Assembly: GCA_902622795.1 (NCBI GenBank)
Contig: CACNRD010000004.1
Span: forward strand, 16,256-80,255
Length of the DNA stretch: 64,000 nt
Reading direction: 5' to 3'
From: an uncultured Pelagibacteraceae bacterium
GTDB lineage: Bacteria > Pseudomonadota > Alphaproteobacteria > Pelagibacterales > Pelagibacteraceae
Under the pieces are notes generated by a model that was given only the letters and a program-made list of their open reading frames with translations, made no database searches and was not told the DNA's origin. The translations under genes were made by a program, and so were the position numbers. Positions 17,504 through 30,190 of this stretch are shown piece by piece; position 1 is the first letter of the stretch; every line of letters begins with the position of its first letter.

Positions 17504-18466
17504 TTAAAGCCCTAACCAACCATCAACAGTTGATTTATTTGCATCCATCCAAGCTCTTGCAACGTCAGCTGGAGCTTTTTTCTCCACTGATATTGCATAA
17601 GCCATTGATGAAACATCATCTGCAGTTAATTGAAAGTTCTTAAAGAATTCAACAATTGCAGGAGATTTACTTTCTAGAGAAGTTCCCCAACCAATTTGAA
17701 TTTGTTTAAGTGCATCTTTTGAAGCTACATAAGATTTTTTGTACCAATCAGCATCTTCTTTAGGTTGAACCATTTTGTATTTAGCTGGATCAAATTTTGG
17801 TTCTTCCAACATAACTACATCAGCCATACCCCAAATTGCATGTGGCTTGTAACAATAAAATGCATATCCCTCACCTTTTTTAATAGAATCTAAAACTCTT
17901 GCATTCTTTACCGCTTCAGCTGCTCTTATTGGTTCAATACCTGCATCATATAAACCATAATCTCTTAATTTAACTTGGTTTACGTTTGCTGATGCCCAAC
18001 CATCTGCACCAATCCAGAACTCACCTTTACCATTGCCATCACTATCCATAGCTTTAACAACTTCAGGTCTACCCAGATCTTCAATTGCGGTAATATTCAT
18101 TTTTTTTGCAAACTTCTGTGAAACACAATAACCTTGGTTTCCTTCATAAGGCTTGCTACTTAACTTTAAAGTACCTTTGGGAACTAAGTCATTAGTATAA
18201 GCCTGTTGGTTTGGTAACCATATATCAGGATGAACTTCAATTTCTCCTTTACTTCTATCAATTGCTCCATAAATAGCAGTATTGTTTCCTGGAACAAGTT
18301 CAGCTTCACCGCCCATCTTGTCTGTAACAACTGCTGCTAATAAATTTGCAATTGCTGTTGCACCTGTCCAACCTGGATCTCCAATTTTTACCTTTTCTGC
18401 AAATGATGAAACAATTGCAAAAAGAGAAATTAATCCAGCTACAAGTGTAGTTTTAATTATTTTCAT
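17504..18466 (-). CDS. proX: Glycine betaine-type ABC transporter, periplasmic binding protein
   Basis: The ATG at 18466 (MKIIKTTLVAGLISLFAIVSSFA) gives a proper signal peptide and is preceded by AGGGGA; the track's upstream Met at 18493 has neither. The mature protein (~300 aa) belongs to the OpuAC/ProX family: KIGDPGWTGATAIANLLAAV at its N-terminus, and aromatic-rich positions such as GEFWIGADGWASAN and YCYKPHAIWGMADVV that could cage a quaternary amine. It delivers betaine-like ligands to ProVW. Glycine betaine is the family default; DMSP or another osmolyte may also bind. Confidence 0.93.
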   Translation of the reverse strand: MKIIKTTLVAGLISLFAIVSSFAEKVKIGDPGWTGATAIANLLAAVVTDKMGGEAELVPGNNTAIYGAIDRSKGEIEVHPDIWLPNQQAYTNDLVPKGTLKLSSKPYEGNQGYCVSQKFAKKMNITAIEDLGRPEVVKAMDSDGNGKGEFWIGADGWASANVNQVKLRDYGLYDAGIEPIRAAEAVKNARVLDSIKKGEGYAFYCYKPHAIWGMADVVMLEEPKFDPAKYKMVQPKEDADWYKKSYVASKDALKQIQIGWGTSLESKSPAIVEFFKNFQLTADDVSSMAYAISVEKKAPADVARAWMDANKSTVDGWLGL

Positions 18467-18493
18467 ATTTTCCCCTATATTTAATTTAGTCAA

Positions 18494-18589
18494 GTTAACT
18501 AAATTAAGAAAGACGAGTCAAAGAAAATGCTTGTTCATTTTGGGTTAACTGGATTGCATTTATTGCAAATGTAGTCTTTTAAAATTTTT
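18494..18589. other. proX upstream region
   Basis: First part of the 357-bp stretch between proX and the VOC gene. It holds two GTTAAC sequences and a small TTGCA-TTTAT-TGCAA hairpin (18554-18568), and presumably the proX promoter. I could not identify convincing -35/-10 elements. The remaining part up to 18850 holds the broken small gene listed next and an AGAGT/ACTCT hairpin after the VOC gene stop. Confidence 0.4.
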
Positions 18590-18716
18590 TTAATCTTTTA
18601 AGTTTAACAATTGATCTAAAGCTTTATGCTTTTTAAACTCCTGTAAAAATTTAGATAGGCTGGCTAATTTCTTTTTTGCGAAAGGTTTCGTAATTTCCTT
18701 AATTTTTTTTTGTCAT
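18590..18716 (-). pseudogene. Small basic-protein gene with a +1 shift in an A9 run (frameshifted or slippage-dependent)
   Basis: On the minus strand, GGAAGA precedes an ATG at 18716. Read in frame it stops after MTKKN. One base less in the run of nine A gives an open frame to 18590: MTKKIKEITKPFAKKKLASL, ending HKALDQLLNLKD, about 41 aa and lysine-rich. The good ribosome-binding site and the amino-acid composition of the shifted frame suggest a real gene that is frameshifted, mis-sequenced, or expressed by polymerase slippage on the homopolymer. I do not recognise the product. It sits upstream of proX on the same strand. Confidence 0.45.
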
Positions 18717-18850
18717 GTATTCTTCCAAACACTATCCCAATTACTCCCCCTGTTTAGTATTGTGTGTTAAATAATGAGCTCCAATAGTTGAAATAATTAA
18801 ATGAAACAGAGTTTCACTCTAAGAATCCAGATTTTTTTTCATTTAAGAAA

Positions 18851-19261
18851 TTATTCTGAATTTGCTGTAAGTGTTTTAATTTCTAAAATATTTTCGTTAG
18901 GATCTTTAACAAAGAAAGTTTCTTGCTCATATTTAGTGCCTTTAAATCTCAAATAAGGCTCATCATAATATTTTGTACCACTATCTTTTAATCTTTGCTT
19001 TAAACCATCAAAATCTTTTCTAGACAAATGAACTCCAAAATGAGGTACTGACACATTTCCCATATCAACATCATGTCTCTCGCTATCCAGTTTATGCTCA
19101 CTTTTATGGAGAGTTAATTCATTTCCCCAAAAATCAACATCAGCCCATTCTTGAGCTGAGTTATCCAATCTACATCCTAAAGTTTCACTATAAAATTTTT
19201 TTGCTATCTCTAAATCTCCACATGGAATTGCCAAGTGAAAACAGTTAGTATTTTTGTACAT
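18851..19261 (-). CDS. Glyoxalase/bleomycin-resistance (VOC) family protein
   Basis: 136 aa, the usual size for a two-module VOC protein. The N-terminal FHLAIPCGDLEIAKKFYSETLGC is the canonical VOC start with its first metal-ligand histidine. The middle VPHFGVHL and the C-terminal DPNENILEIKTL give the further His and Glu ligands. Such proteins act as metal-dependent isomerases, dioxygenases or binding proteins. Substrate unknown; the neighbours (betaine transporter, cysteine synthesis) do not indicate one. Confidence 0.85.
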   Translation of the reverse strand: MYKNTNCFHLAIPCGDLEIAKKFYSETLGCRLDNSAQEWADVDFWGNELTLHKSEHKLDSERHDVDMGNVSVPHFGVHLSRKDFDGLKQRLKDSGTKYYDEPYLRFKGTKYEQETFFVKDPNENILEIKTLTANSE

Positions 19262-19329
19262 AAATTATCCTTTAATTACTAAATATAATCATTATATAAC
19301 CTGTAATTTTAAATTCAACTAGCATAAAT

Positions 19330-19908
19330 ATGAATGATTTTTTACAATCAATAATTGACCGAGATCCTGCTGCTAAGTCAAAATTAAGTTTAATTTTAAC
19401 TTACCCAGGTGTTAAAGCAGTTTTTTTTCATAGGATTGCAAATTTTTTTTCTACAGCAAAATTTGATTTAATTGCAAGAATCATCTCTCAATTTTCAAGA
19501 TTTTTGACCGGTATTGAAATTCATCCTAAAGCAAAAATAGGAAAAAATTTATTTATTGATCACGGTATGGGGGTTGTTATTGGAGAAACCTCGGAAATTG
19601 GAGACAATGTCACTATTTATCATATGGTAACTTTAGGAGGAATAGCTCCTAGCATAAATTCAGACAATCAAAGAAATGTTAAACGCCATCCGACAATTGA
19701 AAATGAAGTTGTTATTGGTTCAGGTGCTCAAGTATTAGGACCAGTGACTGTTGGATGTTGTGCAAAAATTGGAGCTAATGCTGTAATTACAAAAGATGTT
19801 CCAGAAAAAGCTGTAATGGTTGGTATACCTGCTAAAAATGTTGGTATCGCTGATAGCGAATTTAAACCATATGGTATTACTCCTGATAGTGATAAAAAAT
19901 CAGACTAA
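19330..19908 (+). CDS. cysE: Serine O-acetyltransferase
   Basis: 192 aa, the short form of CysE. Left-handed beta-helix hexapeptides run from [19 protein letters not shown] onward. The catalytic His lies in [22 protein letters not shown], and the characteristic LGG loop appears in HMVTLGG. It acetylates L-serine for cysteine synthesis. Its TAA overlaps the cysK ATG by 1 nt (TAATG), so the two enzymes of the pathway are translationally coupled. Such short CysE forms may be less sensitive to cysteine feedback; that is inference. Confidence 0.94.
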
Positions 19909-20909
19909 TGAATGATTTACAAAATGATTTTATTTCAGGAATTGGAAATACTCCTTTAATAAAATTAAGAGCAGCCTCTGAAATTACAGGGTGTAATATT
20001 TTTGGAAAAGCTGAGTTTTTAAATCCTGGAGGTTCTGTCAAAGATAGAGCAGCTCTTGCTTTAATTAAAGATGCTCAAGAAAAAAAATTGATTGCTAAAG
20101 GTGGAACAGTTGTTGAGGGAACTGCTGGTAACACAGGGATTGGACTGGGTCTGTTAGGAAATTCACTGGGTTATAAAACAATCATTGTAATGAATGATAA
20201 TCAAACCCAAGAAAAAAAAGACCTTTTAAGAAATTTAGGTGCAGAATTAAAATTAGTTCCAGCTAAACCTTATAAAGATGATAATAATTTTGTTAAAGTA
20301 GCAGCAAGGTTAGCTGACGAACTAAGACCTTCAAATAATAATGGAGTAATTTGGGCTAACCAATTTGATAATGTAGCAAATGCTAAAGGTCATTATGAAG
20401 GAACTGGTAAAGAAATTTGGGATCAAACTAAAGGTAAAGTTGATGGATTTGTGTGTTCATCTGGAACTGGTGGAACAATTTCAGGTGTTAGTAATGCTCT
20501 TAAAGAAAAAAATAAAGATATAAAAATTTTCCTTTCTGATCCAAAAGGTTCTGCTCTTTATAATTATATAAAGAACGGTGAGTTAAAATCTGAGGGTGGC
20601 TCTATAACAGAAGGTATAGGATCTAGTAGAATAACAGCAAACTTTAAAGATGCTAAAATTGATGACGCATATTCAATTGATGACAAAGAGGCATTACCAA
20701 TTCTGTATGATTTAATTCAAAATGAAGGATTGAGCTTAGGTACTAGCTGTGGAATTAATATTGCAGGAGCTATTAAAATGGGCAAAGAACTTGGTCCTGG
20801 CAAAACAATTGTTACTATTCTTTGTGATAGAAGCGATAAATATGCTACCAAAATGTTCAATAAAAAGTTTTTAGAAGAAAAAGGATTACCAGTACCTAGT
20901 TGGTTTTAA
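19908..20909 (+). CDS. cysK: Cysteine synthase (O-acetylserine sulfhydrylase)
   Basis: 333 aa PLP enzyme of fold type II. The Schiff-base lysine lies in NPGGSVKDRAAL (~residue 42). The substrate loop GTAGNTGIG (~70) and the PLP-phosphate loop SSGTGGTISG (~180) are intact. It combines O-acetylserine with sulfide to make cysteine. It follows cysE directly and ends in a 4-nt overlap with the convergent membrane-protein gene. The C-terminus is slightly longer than in typical CysK. Confidence 0.94.
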   Translation: MNDLQNDFISGIGNTPLIKLRAASEITGCNIFGKAEFLNPGGSVKDRAALALIKDAQEKKLIAKGGTVVEGTAGNTGIGLGLLGNSLGYKTIIVMNDNQTQEKKDLLRNLGAELKLVPAKPYKDDNNFVKVAARLADELRPSNNNGVIWANQFDNVANAKGHYEGTGKEIWDQTKGKVDGFVCSSGTGGTISGVSNALKEKNKDIKIFLSDPKGSALYNYIKNGELKSEGGSITEGIGSSRITANFKDAKIDDAYSIDDKEALPILYDLIQNEGLSLGTSCGINIAGAIKMGKELGPGKTIVTILCDRSDKYATKMFNKKFLEEKGLPVPSWF

Positions 20910-21322
20910 ATATAAATCTTGTCAGCTAATCCGTAACAAAGAACACCACTTAATATTGTTAATACTAATGGAGCATAAATTGCTTCATCTGAAGTTTTAT
21001 CAGTATGACCTAGTTTATTTATTTTTGTGCTATAAAAACCAACAATAAATGCACATAAGTTTTGTAAGAAAATTACATTAAAGAAACCCCAAGTTGCTTC
21101 TAAACCGTTAGGTCTTATAAAGCCCACATAGATTGCCATTAATGTTGAGCCAATAAATATAGATCCGAAAAATCTAACTACACCAGCGCCTGTAGCATCC
21201 ATCCCATATTGATTTAAAAAAGATTGAGTTTGAAACACACATCTAAATCCATAATAAGCAAAGCCTATAAAATGAATTAAAAAAAGGATTAAATAAAAAA
21301 CTCCATTAAATTTTTCAATCAT
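20906..21322 (-). CDS. Four-helix membrane protein of unknown function
   Basis: 138 aa with four hydrophobic segments (about residues 5-24, 44-63, 76-95 and 114-134) and few charged residues between them. The pattern (FRCVFQTQSFLNQYGMD...GAGVVRFFGS) loosely resembles DUF4345-type proteins; I am not sure of that. It has its own promoter region upstream at 21323-21517, divergent from the small-gene operon. Confidence 0.65.
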   Translation of the reverse strand: MIEKFNGVFYLILFLIHFIGFAYYGFRCVFQTQSFLNQYGMDATGAGVVRFFGSIFIGSTLMAIYVGFIRPNGLEATWGFFNVIFLQNLCAFIVGFYSTKINKLGHTDKTSDEAIYAPLVLTILSGVLCYGLADKIYI

Positions 21323-21423
21323 AGTTAAACAATATCAAAAATAAATTTTGAATACACTTTATTTATTAAATAAATAAATCACATTTCAATTGTAAGTTGA
21401 TGTAGGTTTTGCATATTTGATAT

Positions 21424-21457
21424 ACACATTTGACGCATGACGTTTTAATGAATGTGT
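21424..21457. promoter_or_regulatory. 7-bp inverted repeat with inner TGACG repeats upstream of the small-gene operon
   Basis: ACACATT and AATGTGT are exact reverse complements 20 nt apart, and the spacer holds TGACGCATGACG (a direct repeat of TGACG). It lies 60 nt before the first operon gene in a 195-bp divergent spacer. It may be a binding site for a regulator of the ten-gene block. Only the symmetry is seen. Confidence 0.4.
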
Positions 21458-21517
21458 AACACTATGTCATTGAAGATAGCATAAATTTTTAACTCATAAC
21501 AAACTAGAGGAATATTT

Positions 21518-21901
21518 ATGGAAGCAAAAGATGTTGTAAAAAAAGCCTATGAGGCATTTGGTAAAGGTGACATGGAAACTATGTTTAATGACTTAGTACA
21601 TGATGAGTGTATTTGGACCTTTCCAGGTGAAGTAGGTAAACACCCTCTATCAGGAGTCCATAAAGGTAAACAAGCTATGATGGAAACTTTTCAAAAAATT
21701 CCTGCAGCATGGGATAATTTTCAAGTTATTCCAGGTGAAATGATTTCTGAAGGTAACAAGGTATTTGTTAAGTGTACAGGAAAAGCAAGCGGAATGGATA
21801 CAATGTTTGGACATTTTTTTGAAGTTGCAGACAACGGCAAAATATCTTCAATGACAACATACGATGATACATTGAGTATGTTTAATGCAATGAAAAAATA
21901 G
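21518..21901 (+). CDS. SnoaL/NTF2-like protein
   Basis: 127 aa. VKKAYEAFGKGDMETMFNDLVHDECIWTFPG is the standard first helix pair and strand of the NTF2-like/SnoaL fold. GVHKGKQAMMETFQKI and DTMFGHFFEVADNGKISSMTTYDD complete it. Such proteins form a cone-shaped pocket and act as isomerases, hydrolases or ligand binders, usually as dimers. It is the first gene of the tight small-gene run (gap of 11 nt to the next) and has a good GAGGAA ribosome-binding site. The ligand is unknown; a second, shorter NTF2-like gene lies at the end of the block (23706). Confidence 0.8.
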   Translation: MEAKDVVKKAYEAFGKGDMETMFNDLVHDECIWTFPGEVGKHPLSGVHKGKQAMMETFQKIPAAWDNFQVIPGEMISEGNKVFVKCTGKASGMDTMFGHFFEVADNGKISSMTTYDDTLSMFNAMKK

Positions 21902-21912
21902 GAGAAAAATAA

Positions 21913-22386
21913 ATGAAAAAAATACTATTAACTTTAATATTTACATGTTTAACAACTTACTCATTAGCTGATACAGGTAAATTTAATGCCTCTGGAGCAG
22001 GATCTTGGGCAATGAATATTATGAATGCTGGTAACGGAAATATGAGTATTACTTATGATGGTAATGCTGGACTTTCAGATAAAGAAGGAAGCATTTTTGA
22101 TAAATCTACAATGCACTGTATTGGAGGATTAACTTTAGTTGCAGGTAAATTTGATGACGAAACAGGTATGTGTACTTTTTACTTAATGGATGGTGAAAAG
22201 GTTTTCATTAACTACAAAGGTAAAGGAACTGGAGGCCAAGGTGGATCTGGAGAGTTTGTAATTGTTGGTGGAACTGGGAAATATGAAAAAATTTCTGGAA
22301 CAGGTTTCTCTAGTAGACAAAATTTAAAAGGTAAAGCTGGAATGGCTCATTCATTAAATCAAATGAGTGGAAATTTTACTTATTAA
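21913..22386 (+). CDS. Secreted beta-barrel-like protein of unknown function
   Basis: 157 aa with a signal peptide (MKKILLTLIFTCLTTYSLA). The mature part is glycine-rich with alternating strands, notably GKGTGGQGGSGEFVIVGGTGKYEKISGTG. That pattern recalls the allene-oxide-cyclase/dirigent type of small beta-barrel (GGTGxxxxxxGxG). Two cysteines (MHCIGG and GMCTFYLM) could form a disulfide in the periplasm. It is the second gene of the operon, ribosome-binding site AGGAG. No function assigned. Confidence 0.7.
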   Translation: MKKILLTLIFTCLTTYSLADTGKFNASGAGSWAMNIMNAGNGNMSITYDGNAGLSDKEGSIFDKSTMHCIGGLTLVAGKFDDETGMCTFYLMDGEKVFINYKGKGTGGQGGSGEFVIVGGTGKYEKISGTGFSSRQNLKGKAGMAHSLNQMSGNFTY

Positions 22387-22408
22387 TTAAAAAACAAGGA
22401 GATAAATA

Positions 22409-22786
22409 ATGAGAAAAACGACATTGGTACTACTATTTAGTGTTCTTATTTCATCAACTGCAATTGCAGGGATGTCAGATAGCGATAAATCTAAAGCTTG
22501 GGAATGCAGTGGGATTTATATGGCTAATTACTTTTTGCCATCTGGTGAAACTTTTGAATACAGTATGAAAGAAAAATCAATGGCATCTGTTAAGGTTCTT
22601 AAATCATATGCTTTAGAAATAGGAATTCCTGAAAAGGAATGGGACGATGGAGTTAATAAAGCTGTCGATAAGTTTTATGGCTCAAAATATGATGAAGCAA
22701 AAACAGAAGCTTGTCATACTTTTGTGAACTCAGCTGTTCCAGACGGTGAAGAACGAGTAAAAAAAGTAGTGCAGACTTTATATTAA
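22409..22786 (+). CDS. Small secreted helical protein of unknown function
   Basis: 125 aa with a signal peptide (MRKTTLVLLFSVLISSTAIAG). The mature part is helical and charged, with two cysteines (WECSGIY and EACHTFVN) likely to form a disulfide. No family recognised. It is tightly placed in the operon (22 nt after the previous gene, 19 nt before the next), with an AAGGAG ribosome-binding site. Confidence 0.65.
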   Translation: MRKTTLVLLFSVLISSTAIAGMSDSDKSKAWECSGIYMANYFLPSGETFEYSMKEKSMASVKVLKSYALEIGIPEKEWDDGVNKAVDKFYGSKYDEAKTEACHTFVNSAVPDGEERVKKVVQTLY

Positions 22787-22805
22787 ATTTACGAAAGGGA
22801 AAAAA

Positions 22806-23096
22806 ATGGAAAAAGAAATGTTAGCATTAGTAAATTTCAAAGAAGGTAAAATGGAAACCTTTATGGGATGGATGCAGTCTGATGAAGGTATGGGTGTCAG
22901 AAAAAGTGTTGCCTATCCAGAAAAAACTATTGGGGCAATGAAACCAGATAAAACAGGTATGTTGTTTAAAGTTTCAGTTCATAATGAACCTGGAATGAAA
23001 GAATTTGTATCTGGGAAGCATCCTACTGCAAAAGCGATTTATGAAGAATGTATAGAAAGTGCTCAGCTTTGGGAAATGTCAGAGATAAGTCTTTAA
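22806..23096 (+). CDS. Small protein, possibly a dimeric alpha-beta barrel
   Basis: 96 aa, no signal peptide. It opens with a strand (MLALVNFKEGKMETFMGWMQSDEG) followed by a helix and then MLFKVSVHNEPGMKEFVSG, a layout like ferredoxin-like dimeric alpha-beta-barrel proteins. It is methionine-rich. No named family recognised. Next to a similar-sized protein at 23115 and DUF1330 at 23413, which may share the fold. Confidence 0.6.
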   Translation: MEKEMLALVNFKEGKMETFMGWMQSDEGMGVRKSVAYPEKTIGAMKPDKTGMLFKVSVHNEPGMKEFVSGKHPTAKAIYEECIESAQLWEMSEISL

Positions 23097-23114
23097 TTTA
23101 AAAAAGGAGAAAAA

Positions 23115-23402
23115 GTGAAAAACTATATAGTAACTCATACATTTAAGTCTAAAGAGGCTAAGGCTAAAATGATGGAAGTCGTTGGTTCAATGTCTAAGGA
23201 GGATATGGTTAAATCAATGTCTGGAGAAAATGCAAAGTGTCAAATGAGTTGGAATACTCCAGGTGATAATTTAACTATGTTTTGTTGGTGGAAAGGTAAC
23301 GATACTGAATCAATCAACAAACAATTAACACCTATGAATGATTTCTTTGAACCTCACAAATTTGCCGAGTGTACAGACGATATTATAGATTTTAATGCTT
23401 AA
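23115..23402 (+). CDS. Small protein, possibly a dimeric alpha-beta barrel (GTG start)
   Basis: 95 aa. The start is GTG with AAAGGAG about 6 nt upstream. It reads IVTHTFKSKEAKAKMMEVVG, then NLTMFCWWKGNDTESINKQL, consistent with a small ferredoxin-like fold. It resembles small DUF4242/DUF3303-like proteins only vaguely. Part of the operon; function unknown. Confidence 0.6.
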   Translation: MKNYIVTHTFKSKEAKAKMMEVVGSMSKEDMVKSMSGENAKCQMSWNTPGDNLTMFCWWKGNDTESINKQLTPMNDFFEPHKFAECTDDIIDFNA

Positions 23403-23412
23403 TTAAAAAAAA

Positions 23413-23703
23413 ATGCAGGCTGGCTATGCTATTTTTAACATAGAGGTAACTAATCCAGAAGATTATAAAGAATATGTTGAAAAAGTTAAACCTATTGCAG
23501 AAAAATTTGGTGGTGATTACATAATTAGGGGTGGTACAAACCAAATCATAGAAGGAACTTGGCAATATAGCAGAACTGTTGTAATAAAGTTTCCTTCCTA
23601 TGAAAAAGCATTGGAATGGTACAATTCGGAAGAATATCAACCAATAAAAAAAATCCGATTAGTGAATGCAAATACTAATGGGATAATAATACAAGGAGCA
23701 TAA
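23413..23703 (+). CDS. DUF1330 family protein
   Basis: 96 aa. The sequence GYAIFNIEVTNPEDYKEYVEKVKPIAEKFGG, the RGG step and FPSYEKALEWYNSEEYQPIKKIR match the DUF1330 dimeric alpha-beta-barrel family almost end to end. No classical ribosome-binding site is seen (A-rich leader after a 10-nt gap), so it may be coupled to the preceding gene. DUF1330 proteins are uncharacterised small-ligand or radical-handling folds. Confidence 0.85.
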   Translation: MQAGYAIFNIEVTNPEDYKEYVEKVKPIAEKFGGDYIIRGGTNQIIEGTWQYSRTVVIKFPSYEKALEWYNSEEYQPIKKIRLVNANTNGIIIQGA

Positions 23704-23705
23704 AA

Positions 23706-24026
23706 ATGTCGATATTAGAAAAATATAGCGCTGCTTTAAAAAACAAAGATGAAAAAGCAATGAATGAACTTTTGCATGATGATTTTAAATTTACAATGCA
23801 CAAGTCAGGAAATGTTTTAACTAAAAGTGACGTAATGAAATGGGCTATGAGCGGTGACATTAATCAAGATAAAGTAAGAATAGTTTACGAAAATGATGAA
23901 GTAGGAGTTCATCATGCTTTTGTAACATTTAATGATGGTAATGTTGAAGCTGTAATGGCTGTTTACAAATATAAAGATGGAAAAATAGCAAGCTTGGAGA
24001 CAGGCGCTACTCCAATACCTAAATAA
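23706..24026 (+). CDS. Second NTF2-like protein of the block
   Basis: 106 aa. LEKYSAALKNKDEKAMNELLHDDFKFTMHKSGNVLTKSDVMKWA is the front half of an NTF2-like fold, and GNVEAVMAVYKYKDGKIASLETG the back half. It begins 2 nt after DUF1330, preceded by AAGGAGC. It probably pairs structurally with, or duplicates, the protein at 21518. Ligand unknown. Confidence 0.75.
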   Translation: MSILEKYSAALKNKDEKAMNELLHDDFKFTMHKSGNVLTKSDVMKWAMSGDINQDKVRIVYENDEVGVHHAFVTFNDGNVEAVMAVYKYKDGKIASLETGATPIPK

Positions 24027-24037
24027 TTATATAAATT

Positions 24038-24077
24038 TAGCGAGATATCATTTAAAGTCATAAAATGAGTCTCGCTA
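24038..24077 (+). promoter_or_regulatory. 8-bp hairpin enclosing the first SMR start codon
   Basis: TAGCGAGA (24038-24045) and TCTCGCTA (24070-24077) are exact reverse complements. The 24-nt loop carries the translation start of the first SMR gene (ATG at 24065), and the right arm lies within its first codons. Such a hairpin could modulate translation. No known riboswitch structure was recognised. Confidence 0.45.
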
Positions 24078-24397
24078 CTTCCTACTTATTTCTAGGAATT
24101 GCTGTTTTCCTGGGTGTAACTTCGAATAGTTTTGCAAAAAGTGCTGAGGGTTTTACCCTTTTCATACCGAGTTTAATTACTGCAATCACTATAGTCTTGT
24201 GTATGTATGCACTCTCTTTAGTTATGAAAAATATACCAATGGGTATAACTTATGCGTCATTTGCAGGACTGACTATTATAGCAACTGTTGTTGTTGGTGT
24301 TATTAGATTTAACCAAGTACCAAATTTATATTCACTAATTGGCTTAGCTTTTATAATCACTGGTGTATTAATGGTAAACTTATTAGGAAAAAATTAA
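24065..24397 (+). CDS. SMR-family membrane protein lacking the essential glutamate (first of pair)
   Basis: 110 aa, four hydrophobic helices, and SMR hallmarks such as SFAKSAEGFT (EmrE LMKFSEGFT), MGITYASFAGL (EmrE TGIAYAIWSGV) and ITGVLMVNLLG. Aligned on the KxxEGF motif, EmrE Glu14, needed for proton and substrate binding, is Gly17 here (VFLGVTSNSF). The equivalent of EmrE Trp63 is Phe. It is therefore unlikely to be an ordinary proton/drug antiporter. It may act as a heterodimer with the similar protein at 24630, or as a flippase-type SMR relative. It precedes DUF2798 by 2 nt. Confidence 0.85.
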   Translation: MSLATSYLFLGIAVFLGVTSNSFAKSAEGFTLFIPSLITAITIVLCMYALSLVMKNIPMGITYASFAGLTIIATVVVGVIRFNQVPNLYSLIGLAFIITGVLMVNLLGKN

Positions 24398-24399
24398 TT

Positions 24400-24627
24400 A
24401 TGTTTCCAAAAAAATATGCACAAATATTTTTTATTATTTTTATGTCTTTTGGCATGAGTTTTATAATGAGTGGTATCATAGTTGCTGTAAATACAGGCAT
24501 AGAGAATGGTTTTGTTAATAGATGGTTTTATTCTTGGATGTTTGCTTTTCCAGTTGCCTTGGTAGCTGCTTTTTTATTAGCTCCTATTATAAGACCTATA
24601 GTTCACAAAATTGCATCTAAGGAATAA
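24400..24627 (+). CDS. DUF2798 family two-helix membrane protein
   Basis: 75 aa with two hydrophobic segments (about 8-30 and 41-62). The pattern FIIFMSFGMSFIMSGIIVAVNTG...FVNRWFYSWMFAFPVALVAAFLLAPIIRPIV matches DUF2798. It is wedged between the two SMR genes with 2-nt gaps on both sides, so it is probably made together with them and may be a third subunit. Function unknown. Confidence 0.8.
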   Translation: MFPKKYAQIFFIIFMSFGMSFIMSGIIVAVNTGIENGFVNRWFYSWMFAFPVALVAAFLLAPIIRPIVHKIASKE

Positions 24628-24629
24628 TT

Positions 24630-24965
24630 ATGAAACCTTTATTAGGATATTTATTTTTAGCAAATGGTATTATTTTTGGAATAGCTTCAAATAGTTTTGC
24701 AAAAATTTCTGAAGGGTTTACTAAATTAACTCCGTCTGTTCTATGTATATTATTTATGTGCATTACTATGTTCTCAATAGCAAAGGCTATGTCAGCTATT
24801 CCTGTTGGGTTTGCTTATTCGATTTATAGTGGATTAACTGTGACAGGCGTTGTTCTGTTTGCAGTATTAAAATTTAATCAAATCCCAAACATTTATGGAA
24901 TTATTGGAATAATTCTAATTATTGTTGGTGTAATAATGGTCAACTATTTAGGACAAATAGATTAG
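24630..24965 (+). CDS. SMR-family membrane protein lacking the essential glutamate (second of pair)
   Basis: 111 aa, four helices, clearly paralogous to the protein at 24065 (shared SNSFAK, EGFTxxxPS and NYLGQ/NLLGK-type ends). The residue aligned with EmrE Glu14 is again Gly17 (IIFGIASNSF), and the Trp63 position is Tyr. Two consecutive, diverged SMR genes usually mean an obligate heterodimer such as EbrAB or YkkCD, but those keep the Glu. It is the last gene of the small-gene run and converges with the DUF952 gene. Confidence 0.85.
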   Translation: MKPLLGYLFLANGIIFGIASNSFAKISEGFTKLTPSVLCILFMCITMFSIAKAMSAIPVGFAYSIYSGLTVTGVVLFAVLKFNQIPNIYGIIGIILIIVGVIMVNYLGQID

Positions 24966-24975
24966 TAAATAATAA

Positions 24976-25326
24976 TTATTTTTCAAAAGTATTTGGTAAC
25001 TGATGAGTTCCGTCTTTGTTTAAAATTAGTTCAAACTCATCTTCAACATTATCAATATTTAAAGTAGAATACAAATGGGGATACATATCTCCATTAGATG
25101 CATTTTCCCATACTAGATACTCTAGATTTAATGTATGAATTTTTAGCAGAATTAAATTCTCTTGCTTGTGATAATGTTTTTTAAGTGTCTCATGAATTTG
25201 TTCTTCCTCAGAAAAATGGATGTATCCATCTTTTAAATCTTGCGCTGAACCAGAGTAATTCCCTTTTTTTTTGGCATTATTCCACTCTTCTTTATCTAAA
25301 ATTTTAAAAATATACTTTAGATTCAT
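24976..25326 (-). CDS. DUF952 family protein
   Basis: 116 aa. YIFKILDKEEWNNAKKKGNYSGSAQDLKDGYIHFSEEEQI is the conserved N-terminal half of DUF952, and YPHLYSTLNIDNV the second conserved patch. The family resembles ADP-ribosyltransferase-like small proteins in fold predictions, as I recall, but has no proven function. It lies 13 nt downstream of the HisN-like gene on the same strand. Confidence 0.85.
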   Translation of the reverse strand: MNLKYIFKILDKEEWNNAKKKGNYSGSAQDLKDGYIHFSEEEQIHETLKKHYHKQENLILLKIHTLNLEYLVWENASNGDMYPHLYSTLNIDNVEDEFELILNKDGTHQLPNTFEK

Positions 25327-25339
25327 TGATAAAAGATTC

Positions 25340-26143
25340 TTAGCAAACAGGTTTTAATAATTTCAAAAATTTATTATGAATAATTTTGTTTGATGAAACT
25401 AAAATATTTCCACCTTTTATTGCATCTTTGTTATCCCAGGTATTAAGATAACCACCAGCAGCTTTTATGATGGGAATCAAAGGGTGAATGTCCCAAATTT
25501 TATTTGAACATTGAATTACTATATCCAGTCTTCCTTCAGCCAAGTGTGAATAACTTAGAGCATCGCTACAAGGAAATTGCATTAATTTTAAAATTTGAGG
25601 AACTTTTTTTTGTTTATTTAGAGATAGCGCCCCATGAAATGCAGCAGAAACTTTTACATTTTTAAAAGTTGCTTTTTTATTGACCTTAAGTTTTCTTTTT
25701 TTACCATTTTCTACTACATAGGCAGCTTTCTCTGTATGATTTAAATAATATTTTTTTAAGATTGGGAAATTTGCTAATCCTAAAATTGGATAGCCTTTGT
25801 AATTTAATGAAATAAGATTACTCCAAGTTGGATTTCCTATTACAAACGACCTTGTTCCATCAATTGGATCGATTACCCATGTAAATTCACTTTTTGATTT
25901 TTTATGTCCAAACTCTTCACCTATAACTTGGTGATTTGGAAATTTTTTTTTAATTTTAGATCTAATAAATTTTTCAAATGCTTTGTCGGATGTTGTCACT
26001 GGGTCGTATCCCTTTCCTTTAAGTTTATTGGAAACTTTAAAGGTCCTATTTAATTTAGAATAATAAAAACTAGTAAGATCTTTAGCTAACTGGTTTAAGA
26101 ACTTAGCAAATATTGGATATTTTTTTGTGTCAAAATTATTCAC
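25340..26143 (-). CDS. hisN: Inositol monophosphatase-family phosphatase, probably histidinol-phosphatase
   Basis: 267 aa. The magnesium motifs of the family are present: GEEFGH (~71), WVIDPIDGTRSFVIG (~90) and the C-terminal NKIWDIHPLIPIIKAAGG (IWD). The GTRSF and WDIHPL variants are typical of the HisN branch, which hydrolyses histidinol phosphate, though inositol or nucleotide monophosphates are possible substrates. It forms part of a minus-strand run with DUF952. No other his gene adjoins it; hisI is at 46960. Confidence 0.75.
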   Translation of the reverse strand: MNNFDTKKYPIFAKFLNQLAKDLTSFYYSKLNRTFKVSNKLKGKGYDPVTTSDKAFEKFIRSKIKKKFPNHQVIGEEFGHKKSKSEFTWVIDPIDGTRSFVIGNPTWSNLISLNYKGYPILGLANFPILKKYYLNHTEKAAYVVENGKKRKLKVNKKATFKNVKVSAAFHGALSLNKQKKVPQILKLMQFPCSDALSYSHLAEGRLDIVIQCSNKIWDIHPLIPIIKAAGGYLNTWDNKDAIKGGNILVSSNKIIHNKFLKLLKPVC

Positions 26144-26200
26144 AAGGAGTTCATACTATTAAATTAATATCTATTAAAGTTAATTTTTAATTTTATTTTT

Positions 26201-26788
26201 TTAATCTTTGAACAAATTTTCAATTTGAGCTTCTGCATCTTTAATAGATTTATCATAATCCAAAGCCATTTGATCAGCGCTAATTACATCTACTTTTTCT
26301 ATCCCAAAGAAATTTAAAATAAATTTTAACCAGGGTGTTAAAAAATCCTCAGCACTATTAAGTTTGGTACCACCAGAAGTAATGACTAAATAAGCATGTT
26401 TGTTTTTTAATAATCCTTCCCTTCTTCCATTTGGTTTAAATTTAAATGTTTCTCCAATTCTAGCAGCTAAATCCGTCCAAGCCTTTAAGGTTGCTGGTGG
26501 ACCATAATTATAAATTGGAGCTGAGATAATAATGACATCACTTTCTTTAAGCTCTTTTACTAGCTGGTCTGACAACTCAAACATTTTTTTGTGGTGTTCT
26601 GTTTGATCTTTTTCATCAATTTTCATCCCTGACTCTGTTAATCCACTCACAAAAAGCATCTCCTCATCTAAGTCTCTGTAAAGCACTTCATCACCAGGTT
26701 TTTTTATTTTATCCAATAATTTTTTAGCTAATGCTCTTGATGTTGAGCCTTTTTTCCTAGCACTTGAGTCTATTTGATAGATTTTCAT
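26201..26788 (-). CDS. Flavodoxin-like NAD(P)H oxidoreductase (AzoR/FMN-dependent reductase type)
   Basis: 195 aa. The N-terminal IDSSARKKGSTSRALAKKLLDKI is the FMN-phosphate-binding loop. APIYNYGPPATLKAWTDLAARIGETFKF is the next conserved FMN-contacting stretch, typical of AzoR/NQO1-like proteins, and ITSGGT the third. It would reduce quinones, azo or nitro compounds with NAD(P)H. It lies 9 nt downstream of ccdA. Natural substrate unknown. Confidence 0.85.
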   Translation of the reverse strand: MKIYQIDSSARKKGSTSRALAKKLLDKIKKPGDEVLYRDLDEEMLFVSGLTESGMKIDEKDQTEHHKKMFELSDQLVKELKESDVIIISAPIYNYGPPATLKAWTDLAARIGETFKFKPNGRREGLLKNKHAYLVITSGGTKLNSAEDFLTPWLKFILNFFGIEKVDVISADQMALDYDKSIKDAEAQIENLFKD

Positions 26789-26797
26789 TCTTCCTTT

Positions 26798-27505
26798 TTA
26801 GCCGAAATTTTGCATAAAAGGAAAAACTTTAATTATATAAAAGCCAATTGCTTGTAACTGATTGGTTAAAATTAAAATACCTGTAACTAAAAGAGTTATT
26901 CCACCTATTTTTGAGATCAAATTTATATTTTTTCTAAAATTTTTAGAAAATAATAAAAATCTTTGAATTAAATATCCTGATAATACAAAAGGTATAGCAA
27001 GACCTAATGAGTAAGATATCAATAATATTATCGCTCTAGATAATGTTTCTTCAATCGAGGCTAATGCTAGAATAGAACCTAAAATTGGTCCTATACAAGG
27101 AGTCCATCCAAAACCAAATGCAAGTCCAATTATATATGGAAATAAAATATTTCTAGATTCTTTTGCATCAAATCTTTTTTCAAAGTTAAGATATGGAATA
27201 TTTATAATCCCTAATAATTGAAATGAAAATATAACAATTATTATCCCTGCAAAAATTCTTAAAATTTCTGAATTTTGCAAGAGTGCTTGACCAAGAAAAG
27301 AGGCTGATGCTCCCAAAAGTACAAATACAGTTGAAAACCCTAAACAAAATAAAACTAAAGGAAAAAAGTTAGTTTTTTTAGACTCAATTATTTCTTGAAG
27401 CGATTGACCTGAGATATAGGAAACATACCCAGGGATAAGTGGTAAGACACATGGTGATAAAAAACTTATAAGACCTGCACCAAATGCAATTAAATATTCA
27501 AACAT
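26798..27505 (-). CDS. ccdA: Cytochrome c biogenesis/thiol transport protein CcdA
   Basis: 235 aa, six membrane segments, with the duplicated cysteine motifs FLSPCVLPLIPGYVSYISG (N-terminal) and FGWTPCIGPILGS (~133) that carry electrons across the membrane. It moves reductant from cytoplasmic thioredoxin to periplasmic thiol proteins for cytochrome c maturation or the exported MsrB. It starts at the base adjoining the ppc stop, so it is probably co-transcribed. Confidence 0.93.
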   Translation of the reverse strand: MFEYLIAFGAGLISFLSPCVLPLIPGYVSYISGQSLQEIIESKKTNFFPLVLFCLGFSTVFVLLGASASFLGQALLQNSEILRIFAGIIIVIFSFQLLGIINIPYLNFEKRFDAKESRNILFPYIIGLAFGFGWTPCIGPILGSILALASIEETLSRAIILLISYSLGLAIPFVLSGYLIQRFLLFSKNFRKNINLISKIGGITLLVTGILILTNQLQAIGFYIIKVFPFMQNFG

Positions 27506-30190
27506 CTATCCAGTATTTTTCATGGCAGCTGATATTCCAGCTATTGATGTTAAAAGAGCATCATTTAAATATTTTTTTTCAGACATTTTTTTATTTTTTT
27601 TAAGTTTAAATATAACTATTGGTTGAATAATATTAAGTACTTCAGAGTATATAGCTCTGACCATTATCAAAGTTCTAAATTGCTTACGAGTTAAAATAAT
27701 TTCTTTTGTAGTAATTTTTTTATTTAAGTTTTTTATTGCATCAAATTGAAATCTTAGTTTTTTTCCAACTCTTTTTAGTGCACTATCTGCTAAATACTCC
27801 TCATAAATTTTTGAAATTTCTGGATCGACTTTAGTAATTACCATATCAAGAATATCTAACATTGAATTGAAAAAAGGCCAATTTTTTTCCATATCAATTA
27901 ATGTTTTTCTAAATTTTTTTATATACCCATATCTTAAAGCTTCTGCACTACCTAGCCAAGCTGGCAACATCAACCTTATTTGTGTCCAAGCAAAAACCCA
28001 AGGTATAGCTCTTAAACTCTTTATATTATCAATATTTTTCCTTTTTGATGGTCTAGATCCAATAGATAGTTTTCCAAGAGCTGCACTTGGGGTAACGGTT
28101 TTAAAATATTTAATAAATTCTGAACTTTGATTAATATTTTTTCTATACGAACTTTTAGAAATATCAGCCATTTTTTCAATAAGTTCTCTCCAGTTTTGTT
28201 TGGGCATTGGTGGAGGATTAAGTGTTGCCTCAGTCACTGCACCTATATAACTACAGAGATTATATTCAGCTATAGGTTCATAACCATATTTTTGCTGAAT
28301 AACTTCTCCTTGATCAGTAATCCTTATTTTTCCATTTACTGAATTGGGTGGTAGAGATCTTAAAGTAGCTTGAATTGGACCTCCCCCTCTTCCAGGTGAA
28401 CCTCCTCTTCCATGAAAAAAAGTTACATCTATTTTGAATTTTTTCCCTAATTTAACAATTTCTTCTTGAGCTTTATATTGATGCCAACTAGCACAAATTT
28501 TTCCAGCATCTTTGCTAGAATCTGAATATCCTATCATTACCTCTTGTTTACTATTAATTAATTTTCTGTACCATTTTTTCGAAAATAAATTCTCCATAAC
28601 TGGTTTTGCATTAATCAAATCATCCAATGTTTCAAATAATGGAACGACTCTCAATTTATCTTTTATTTTTGCCTCTTTTTGTAAAAATGAAACTGACAGA
28701 ATATCTGACACAGATGTTGTCATTGAAATTACATAAGCACCTAAACACTCAGGGGGTTCATCAGCAAGTATTTTTAAAGTGGACCAAACTTCATTGTTTT
28801 CTTTATTAGAAAATTTAAATTTATTAATAATATTATTATTTGAGGTTAATTTAGATTTTAGAAAATTAATTTTTTCATCTTCAGTGAATTTAAAATAGTT
28901 TTTATTAAATTTCTTTTTAACAAATTCAGCAATCAATTGTGTGTGTCGAGAAGACTCTTGTCTAATATCTATTCTTGCAAGATTTATACCAAAACATTTT
29001 GCTCTTCTCATAAGATCTAATAAATCTCCGCTTGCAACATTTTCGTTTTGATTTTGCTCTAAAGACTCTCTTACAACTCTTAAAGGTTTTAAAATTTCTT
29101 CAGTTGAGGTTAATAAGATTTTTTTATCTAAAGGTGTTTTATTAATAAAATATTGTTCTATAGACCTATGGGTTAATCTCAGTTTATCTCTTAAAGGTCT
29201 TAAAAAAACTCGATACGGCTCAAAAGTTTTTCCAACTTTAGAACTTATTTTTTTTGAACATTTTTTCATAGAATAAGATCTAATAATTTTAGTTAGAGAT
29301 TTCTCATATAATTTTGCTGCTTCCCATCTTGATAATAAAATTACTTTTTTAGTAACTTGAGAAGTTACATTAGGATTTCCGTCTCTATCCCCACCCATCC
29401 ACGAACCGAATTGAATTGGATTAAAATTTTTTGGCAATCCTCTATTCATATTTTTCAAAAAAATAGAGTTTAATCTTCTATAAACTTTTGGAATAGTATC
29501 CCACAAACTATCTTCTATAATAGCTAAACCCCATCTTGCTTCATCAAATGGAGAAGGTTTTGATCTTTTAAGATCATCTGTATTCCAAATAATTGTAAAC
29601 TCGTCATATAGTTGTTTGTTTAATTGTATTAATTTAGATGAATTAGATTTATAGAGATCTTTTTGCTCTAAAATTTCAATTATCTTGTGATATTTCTGTA
29701 TTAATGTTCTTCTTTTAACTTCCGTTGGATGTGCGGTTAAAACTATTCCTATATCTAAATTTTTAGCAAGATTATAAATTTTGTTATTAGATATTTTCTT
29801 ATTTTTAAAAAGTTTTTCAAATATTTCCTCTATGAAAATATTATATTTTAGATTTTTCCTCTTAGTTTCATATTCATCTAAATTTCTTGCAGTATCAATT
29901 GACTCAGCTAGATTTATAAAATTTATGAAATGAGTAAATGCTCTAGTAAGTCTAAGTGTATCTCTTGGATTGCTTTTTCTTACTGTTTTAACTAGTTTTT
30001 TAAAAGAATTTTTATTTTTAAGATTTATTTTATTGGCTTTTGAGAGTTTCCTTACCTTTTCGACTAAATTGAAAAACTTTATACCTTCTTGCTCTTTAAT
30101 TACTTCGCCAAGAATATTTCCAAGATAACTGATGTCTTCTCTAAGCAACTTTGTAGGTATTCTCTCATAATAAAGATCTCGTTTTTTCAT
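27506..30190 (-). CDS. ppc: Phosphoenolpyruvate carboxylase
   Basis: 894 aa, full family length. The two catalytic signatures are intact: IVLTAHPTEVKRRTL (~149) with the active-site histidine, and VTFFHGRGGSPGRGGGP (~545). MGGDRDGNPNVT and the QEVMIGYSDSSKDAG segment are also conserved. It fixes bicarbonate onto PEP to make oxaloacetate, replenishing the TCA cycle in an organism that lives on C1 and organic-acid substrates. It overlaps the end of the SMP-30 gene by 26 nt. Confidence 0.96.
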   Translation of the reverse strand: MKKRDLYYERIPTKLLREDISYLGNILGEVIKEQEGIKFFNLVEKVRKLSKANKINLKNKNSFKKLVKTVRKSNPRDTLRLTRAFTHFINFINLAESIDTARNLDEYETKRKNLKYNIFIEEIFEKLFKNKKISNNKIYNLAKNLDIGIVLTAHPTEVKRRTLIQKYHKIIEILEQKDLYKSNSSKLIQLNKQLYDEFTIIWNTDDLKRSKPSPFDEARWGLAIIEDSLWDTIPKVYRRLNSIFLKNMNRGLPKNFNPIQFGSWMGGDRDGNPNVTSQVTKKVILLSRWEAAKLYEKSLTKIIRSYSMKKCSKKISSKVGKTFEPYRVFLRPLRDKLRLTHRSIEQYFINKTPLDKKILLTSTEEILKPLRVVRESLEQNQNENVASGDLLDLMRRAKCFGINLARIDIRQESSRHTQLIAEFVKKKFNKNYFKFTEDEKINFLKSKLTSNNNIINKFKFSNKENNEVWSTLKILADEPPECLGAYVISMTTSVSDILSVSFLQKEAKIKDKLRVVPLFETLDDLINAKPVMENLFSKKWYRKLINSKQEVMIGYSDSSKDAGKICASWHQYKAQEEIVKLGKKFKIDVTFFHGRGGSPGRGGGPIQATLRSLPPNSVNGKIRITDQGEVIQQKYGYEPIAEYNLCSYIGAVTEATLNPPPMPKQNWRELIEKMADISKSSYRKNINQSSEFIKYFKTVTPSAALGKLSIGSRPSKRKNIDNIKSLRAIPWVFAWTQIRLMLPAWLGSAEALRYGYIKKFRKTLIDMEKNWPFFNSMLDILDMVITKVDPEISKIYEEYLADSALKRVGKKLRFQFDAIKNLNKKITTKEIILTRKQFRTLIMVRAIYSEVLNIIQPIVIFKLKKNKKMSEKKYLNDALLTSIAGISAAMKNTG

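Follow-up and report, generated by a model that had tools for sequence, protein, structure and literature searches.

The window, a stretch of 64,000 nucleotides of Pelagibacteraceae DNA, encodes two neighbouring SMR family proteins, SMR1 and SMR2, and both of them possess glycine at the position of Glu14 of EmrE. In textbook accounts, SMR proteins cannot do without Glu14, and their proton coupling is based on it. A survey of related loci revealed 188 distinct proteins with the same glycine (hereafter Gly14 proteins), nearly all of them from Pelagibacterales (SAR11). These proteins are very unlikely to expel cations by the known proton-coupled route. Their residue pattern suggests, with roughly even chances in our estimate, that they form dual-topology homodimers and act, without coupling, as a facilitator or flippase whose substrate is either uncharged or net-neutral.

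The three-gene set and the residue at position 14

The window is carried by contig 4 of a 1.0-Mb genome, the relatives of which are single-cell genomes and MAGs of Pelagibacteraceae (SAR11). In the named collection, the most similar orthologue of SMR1 has 97% identity. SMR1, a DUF2798 gene and SMR2 are all encoded on the plus strand with gaps of 2 nt between the ORFs (Table 1), downstream of a small-protein island and upstream of convergent genes. In Pfam, both SMR proteins belong to the SMR family PF00893, with scores of 60.5 bits for SMR1 and 59.8 bits for SMR2 (cut-off 23.7), and the protein encoded between them matches PF11391 (DUF2798) with 71.6 bits (cut-off 23.5). SMR1 and SMR2 show 43% identity over residues 5-109. 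The genome also possesses a third SMR gene (L001:1492-1824), which encodes a canonical Glu14/Trp63 protein and is flanked by an acyl-CoA synthetase-like gene and a dihydroorotase-like gene. No Rfam match to a guanidine or other riboswitch was found upstream, in 18000-30000. Phage carriage of the genes was rejected, as phage records hold only relatives with less than 60% identity.

Table 1. Features of the SMR1-DUF2798-SMR2 set, with positions in the window; residue numbers 14, 18, 63 and 67 follow EmrE.
Feature	Position	Strand	Basis
SMR1, Gly14/Asn18/Phe63 SMR protein, 110 aa, four predicted TM helices	24065-24397	+	PF00893, AlphaFold2, Pelagibacteraceae orthologues
Codon GGT, Gly at position 14 of SMR1 (protein residue 17)	24113-24115	+	Sequence, EmrE alignment
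Codon AAT, Asn at position 18 of SMR1; invariant in the clade, Thr in Glu14 sisters	24125-24127	+	
SMR1 helix 3, Phe63 to Thr67; G-L-T in place of the GxG hinge	24260-24274	+	
DUF2798 (PF11391) protein, 75 aa, predicted two-helix hairpin	24400-24627	+	Pfam, fold, distribution
SMR2, Gly14/Asn18/Tyr63 paralogue, 111 aa	24630-24965	+	PF00893, identity to SMR1
Codon GGA, Gly at position 14 of SMR2	24678-24680	+	Sequence, alignment
Codon AAT, Asn at position 18 of SMR2	24690-24692	+	Sequence, clade alignment
SMR2 helix 3, Tyr63 to Thr67	24825-24839	+	

The small-protein island (20906-24026) is situated between a CysK-family gene (19908-20909) and the SMR genes, and is very variable across SAR11 genomes. 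It encodes two SnoaL-like proteins, a DUF1330 protein and a SCO4226-like protein. Several further conserved families of the island show no significant Pfam match: a 138-aa membrane-type protein on the minus strand (20906-21322), proteins of 157 aa (21913) and 125 aa (22409) with hydrophobic N-termini, and a 96-aa protein (22806).

The profile alignment of SMR1 and SMR2 to EmrE (PDB 3b5d, E=3e-20) is ungapped over 105 columns and places Gly of both proteins in the column of Glu14. The AlphaFold2 monomer model of SMR1 (pLDDT 88) is composed of helices 3-26, 33-54, 59-82, and 88-107, which predicts the four-helix fold of the SMR family. The best structural matches of the model are EmrE and Gdx-Clo, with a TM-score of about 0.70-0.83 in nine matches (E<=0.001), and the structure of the EmrE WT/E14Q heterodimer is among them. 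Gly17, the equivalent of EmrE position 14, is located in the middle of helix 1 in this model. A shifted alignment was rejected on the basis of the ungapped columns and the agreeing fold, and degenerate or miscalled genes were rejected by the dN/dS values and the 188 concordant Gly14 sequences. The replacement set shared by all 188 also rejects chance and sequencing error. The initial annotation had reported Gly in place of Glu14 in both paralogues, and the alignment, the fold and the concordant sequences all bear it out. The structure prediction which it proposed gave the fold described above for SMR1 and a two-helix hairpin for DUF2798. It had also proposed a search for another membrane-facing acid, and no compensating membrane acid was found to be conserved among the Gly14 proteins at any position surveyed. 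The only frequent acid is at position 25 in loop 1, where Q or N also occur.

Residue pattern and origin of the Gly14 clade

The SMR set consisted of all fetched loci along with E. coli EmrE, Gdx, MdtI, MdtJ, ArnE, ArnF, and YnfA. The 188 distinct Gly14 proteins include close relatives and are represented by 37 proteins at 85% identity. Position 18, a pocket position in helix 1 of EmrE, is Asn in 188/188 Gly14 proteins, and position 63 is Phe or Tyr in all of them as well. Position 67 is Thr or Cys except in 3 proteins with Ala or Val, giving a hinge of the form G-x-[T/C]. In Qac, Gdx and polyamine SMRs, a central Glu14, which binds protons and cations, is accompanied by Trp63 and a GxG hinge; SMR1, SMR2 and the other clade members have Gly at the first of these positions, and Trp63 with the GxG hinge is absent from 188/188. 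Among Glu14 proteins, Trp63 and Gly67 occur together in 70 of 71, and the exception has Tyr63, consistent with YnfA. Positions 14, 63 and 65-67 represent the binding glutamate, the binding tryptophan and the TM3 hinge, respectively (PMC9574504).

The fixed differences between the Gly14 proteins and their ten nearest SAR11 Glu14 sisters include positions 14, 18, 63, and 67. Tyr60, the 'tyrosine switch' of SMR proteins in general, is invariant across the Gly14 clade, and so are Lys22, Gly90, Gly97, and Asn102. The median dN/dS was 0.042 for SMR1, 0.064 for SMR2 and 0.117 for DUF2798; the SMR1 and SMR2 genes are under purifying selection. The sequences show that the replacements of Glu14 by Gly, Thr18 by Asn, Trp63 by Phe/Tyr and GxG by GxT/C were made together and are conserved under this selection.

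To the Qac-type SMRs (EmrE, QacC/G/H/J), the Gly14 proteins are similar in PF00893 fold and length, in Tyr60 and Lys22 and in their branch of the tree, and they differ in all four replaced features. The best NCBIfam models are those of Qac proteins (1e-22), with scores of 80 against equivalog cut-offs of 160 bits. The ArnE model gave 16.2 and 15.2 bits for SMR1 and SMR2 (cut-off 92), which places both outside ArnE/ArnF by sequence. YvaD, a poorly conserved PSMR member from the YvaE/YvaD pair of Bacillus, shares the loss of E14 (Bay and Turner 2009, PMC2716321). It is, however, strongly diverged and the only pair member reported to lack E14, whereas strong conservation and the lack of Glu14 in both paralogues characterize the SAR11 clade. 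An SMR gene in a genomic island was mentioned, without residue detail, in a paper on Arctic SAR11 (PMC12421898), and a report of the SAR11 Gly14 clade was not found in the literature available.

The maximum-likelihood tree grouped the Gly14 proteins in a single clade (support 100/98) nested among the SAR11 Glu14 Qac-type SMRs. ArnE and ArnF were left out of both trees as they are too distant. When columns 14, 18, 63, and 67 and the sequences of L157, MdtI and MdtJ were removed, the clade was still recovered with support of 100/92, and monophyly as an artefact of the trait columns or of long branches was rejected by this reduced tree. There the Gly14 proteins and the SAR11 Glu14 sisters together formed a clade (96/90). 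The nested position of the one Gly14 clade indicates that the glutamate was lost once, independently of ArnEF, in or near Pelagibacterales and from a drug-exporter-like (Qac/EmrE-type) ancestor. The clade later split in two: SMR1 belongs to a branch with Phe63, and SMR2 to one with Tyr63 that also includes the related 'SMR3'.

Of 149 near-complete genomes sampled across the order, 123 gave a match to the Gly14 profile. A few of these matches, with the weakest E-values (about 1e-19 to 1e-21), probably represent Glu14 sisters, and the share of genomes with a Gly14 SMR is better put at about 80%. The searches in the class and the phylum covered sampled genomes, and the reading of residues was confined to the loci fetched there (best 25-30 places). 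Among the loci read, the only Gly14 SMR outside the order in the class sample was L157, while none was found in the phylum sample, where those read have Glu14. L157 is a Gly14/Asn18 SMR in a 1.4-Mb genome (G480) from another alphaproteobacterial family and forms a long branch inside the SAR11 clade. It may be the result of horizontal transfer.

Pairing and gene neighbourhoods

The pairing of SMR1 and SMR2 was analyzed in 26 same-genus genomes which are at least 96% complete. The two genes are adjacent in 14/26 and present but unlinked in 2/26, a single paralogue is present in 9/26 (SMR1 only in 3, SMR2/SMR3 only in 6), and one genome has neither. The genes are hence not always together, and in other genera SMR1 is found without the partner. 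The mean Lys/Arg topology bias is +0.29 for SMR1 and +0.90 for SMR2 (+1 and 0 in the proteins of the window). Heterodimeric SMR pairs have opposite Lys/Arg biases of about +4/-4 (PMC9574504), and by the measure used here MdtI/MdtJ have -5/+5 and ArnE/ArnF -4/+5; no such opposition is seen in SMR1/SMR2. The near-zero bias of both would indicate dual topology. The possession of two adjacent SMR genes is shared with MdtI/MdtJ and EbrA/EbrB, but MdtI/MdtJ differ in keeping Glu14 and in their strong bias, and SMR1/SMR2 often occur singly. MdtI has Asn18 together with Glu14, and therefore Asn18 alone is no sign of neutral transport.

DUF2798 sits between SMR1 and SMR2 in most close relatives, and in other genomes it is found before both, away from them, or is missing. 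Across the family it adjoins a Gly14 SMR gene in 15/45 genomes having DUF2798, is absent from genus-g4 genomes with the SMR, and is present in one genus without Gly14 SMR. DUF2798 may have a helper function in some lineages, but it is no constant subunit. The adjacent SMR1-(DUF2798)-SMR2 genes are probably co-expressed paralogues and not obligate subunits, and adjacency may mean little in small streamlined genomes.

In other genera, Gly14 SMR genes are tightly coupled to differing genes, and the contexts vary by genus. SMR1 forms an MtnP-MtnA-SMR1 cluster (L106:1489-2900, L136, L138), which in L136 and L138 adjoins a class II aldolase/short-chain dehydrogenase fusion and resembles a DHAP-shunt type pathway for 5'-deoxynucleosides. 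It is also located between two Liv/Urt-type ABC permease genes, one LivH-like (UrtB/LivH family) and one LivM-like (L099:432-2717, L139), and adjoining dxs (L094, L096/L137). In two SAR11 genera (L116:463-801, L151:2991-3332), SMR3 is translationally coupled between the genes of G3P dehydrogenase and glycerol kinase. At L128, L202, and L203 it follows a gene of a ManC-like guanylyltransferase. A related copy is situated after an epimerase-family gene and directly before UgpB (L127, L122). No glycolipid or Arn-like operon was found beside Gly14 SMRs in the neighbourhoods surveyed, nor one common genomic context across genera which names a substrate. As the contexts differ between genera, no single substrate is indicated. 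The recurring neighbours are genes for uptake or catabolism of small neutral metabolites, providing a lead for the substrate class.

Putative function of the Gly14 proteins

A review distinguishes four SMR subtypes and assigns to them at least 97% of the bacterial SMR genes that it analyzed (PMC9574504). Absence of the glutamate is mentioned there for one of the four alone, the lipid SMRs, which often lack it. They are also the only subtype known for noncationic substrates, with ArnEF moving a noncationic lipid substrate, and probably work without proton coupling (PMC9574504). Replacement of E14 in EmrE, Asp excepted, abolishes proton binding as well as binding and transport of known substrates (PMC9860125), and for this reason the known H+/cation cycle is very unlikely in SMR1/SMR2. 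The initial annotation had proposed a non-drug transporter, and this agrees with the clade-wide and co-ordinate absence of the carboxylate, which speaks against an ordinary drug/H+ antiporter. It had also named ArnEF as relatives without the glutamate, correctly: E. coli ArnE has S14, Q18, and K22, and ArnF has A14. ArnE homologues also have a non-acid residue at 14 and keep Gln18 and Lys22. The parallel of S14/Q18/K22 with G14/N18/K22, the existence of glutamate-less lipid SMRs and the effect of E14 replacement are together the reasons for favouring an uncoupled facilitator or flippase.

In this favoured explanation, SMR1 and SMR2 represent one glutamate-less subfamily, which arose once inside SAR11 from a Qac/EmrE-type ancestor. 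Each protein would insert in both orientations and form an antiparallel dual-topology homodimer, and alternating access would be retained through the tyrosine switch. Having no carboxylates for protons or cations, the dimer would act as an uncoupled facilitator, either a uniporter or a flippase. Two Asn18 amides together with Tyr60 would form a neutral hydrogen-bonding pocket, and the substrate would be a small metabolite or a lipid-like molecule, either uncharged or net-neutral. With the hinge changed from GxG to GxT/C, alternation may have been lost.

Among the other explanations, an ArnE/ArnF-like flippase of lipids or lipid-linked sugars, in which the head group of a polyprenyl- or phospholipid would cross the pocket lacking Glu and the tail would remain in the membrane portal, is unlikely but deserves some weight. 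Noncationic substrates are known only for the often glutamate-less lipid SMRs (PMC9574504), the ArnE homologues resemble the Gly14 proteins at positions 14 (non-acid), 18 (amide) and 22 (Lys), and a few loci adjoin dxs or the ManC-like gene. ArnE/ArnF are, however, on another branch of the family, with opposite charge biases, an Arn operon context and a different helix 3 sequence; the Gly14 clade derives from Qac-type SMRs, reaches only 16 bits with the ArnE model, and shows neither an Arn-like operon nearby nor the charge bias. A flippase, as suggested by the initial annotation, is a possible activity, although the clade does not derive from ArnEF and no glycolipid operon adjoins it. It is distinctly unlikely that the proteins keep the SMR fold in a structural, regulatory or assembly role and transport nothing any more. 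The loss of the essential glutamate, the binding-site Trp and the GxG hinge would suit such a role, for which the poorly conserved YvaD without E14 is a precedent (PMC2716321), but the Gly14 SMRs, unlike YvaD, are strongly conserved and widespread, and their invariant Tyr60 and Asn18 suggest a working pocket.

The heteromer with DUF2798 as a possible component, as the initial annotation had pictured it, is improbable. Adjacency of the genes with 2-nt spacing and the frequent position of DUF2798 between them are what an obligate SMR1-SMR2 heterodimer would lead one to expect, but against it stand the charge bias near zero in both proteins, the genomes with one paralogue or separate loci, SMR1 alone in other genera and the loose linkage of DUF2798. 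A cation transporter coupled via another group, such as the protonation of the substrate itself or a backbone/Tyr site, is highly improbable: the Qac models match best and Tyr60 is kept, but no conserved membrane acid is present anywhere, and EmrE binds neither protons nor drugs once E14 is replaced (PMC9860125).

SAR11 bacteria are the most abundant marine heterotrophs. As the closest curated models of the Gly14 SMRs are Qac exporters, homology-based annotation would call them multidrug transporters, and this label is likely wrong. Such misannotation as multidrug efflux would touch roughly 80% of the near-complete genomes sampled in the order. Being natural and strongly conserved, the clade without Glu14 provides a ready-made test of which functions the SMR fold can serve in the absence of proton coupling, and of the way in which an antiporter acquires a different role. 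Tentatively, the clade may even represent a fifth functional class of SMR confined to SAR11 and close relatives: facilitators of dual topology which carry neutral metabolites without proton coupling and which evolved from a drug/H+ antiporter by a swap of the whole binding site and hinge. If this holds true, the neighbourhoods with glycerol kinase/G3P dehydrogenase, UgpB and MtnP-MtnA would suit polyols or small alcohols as substrates.
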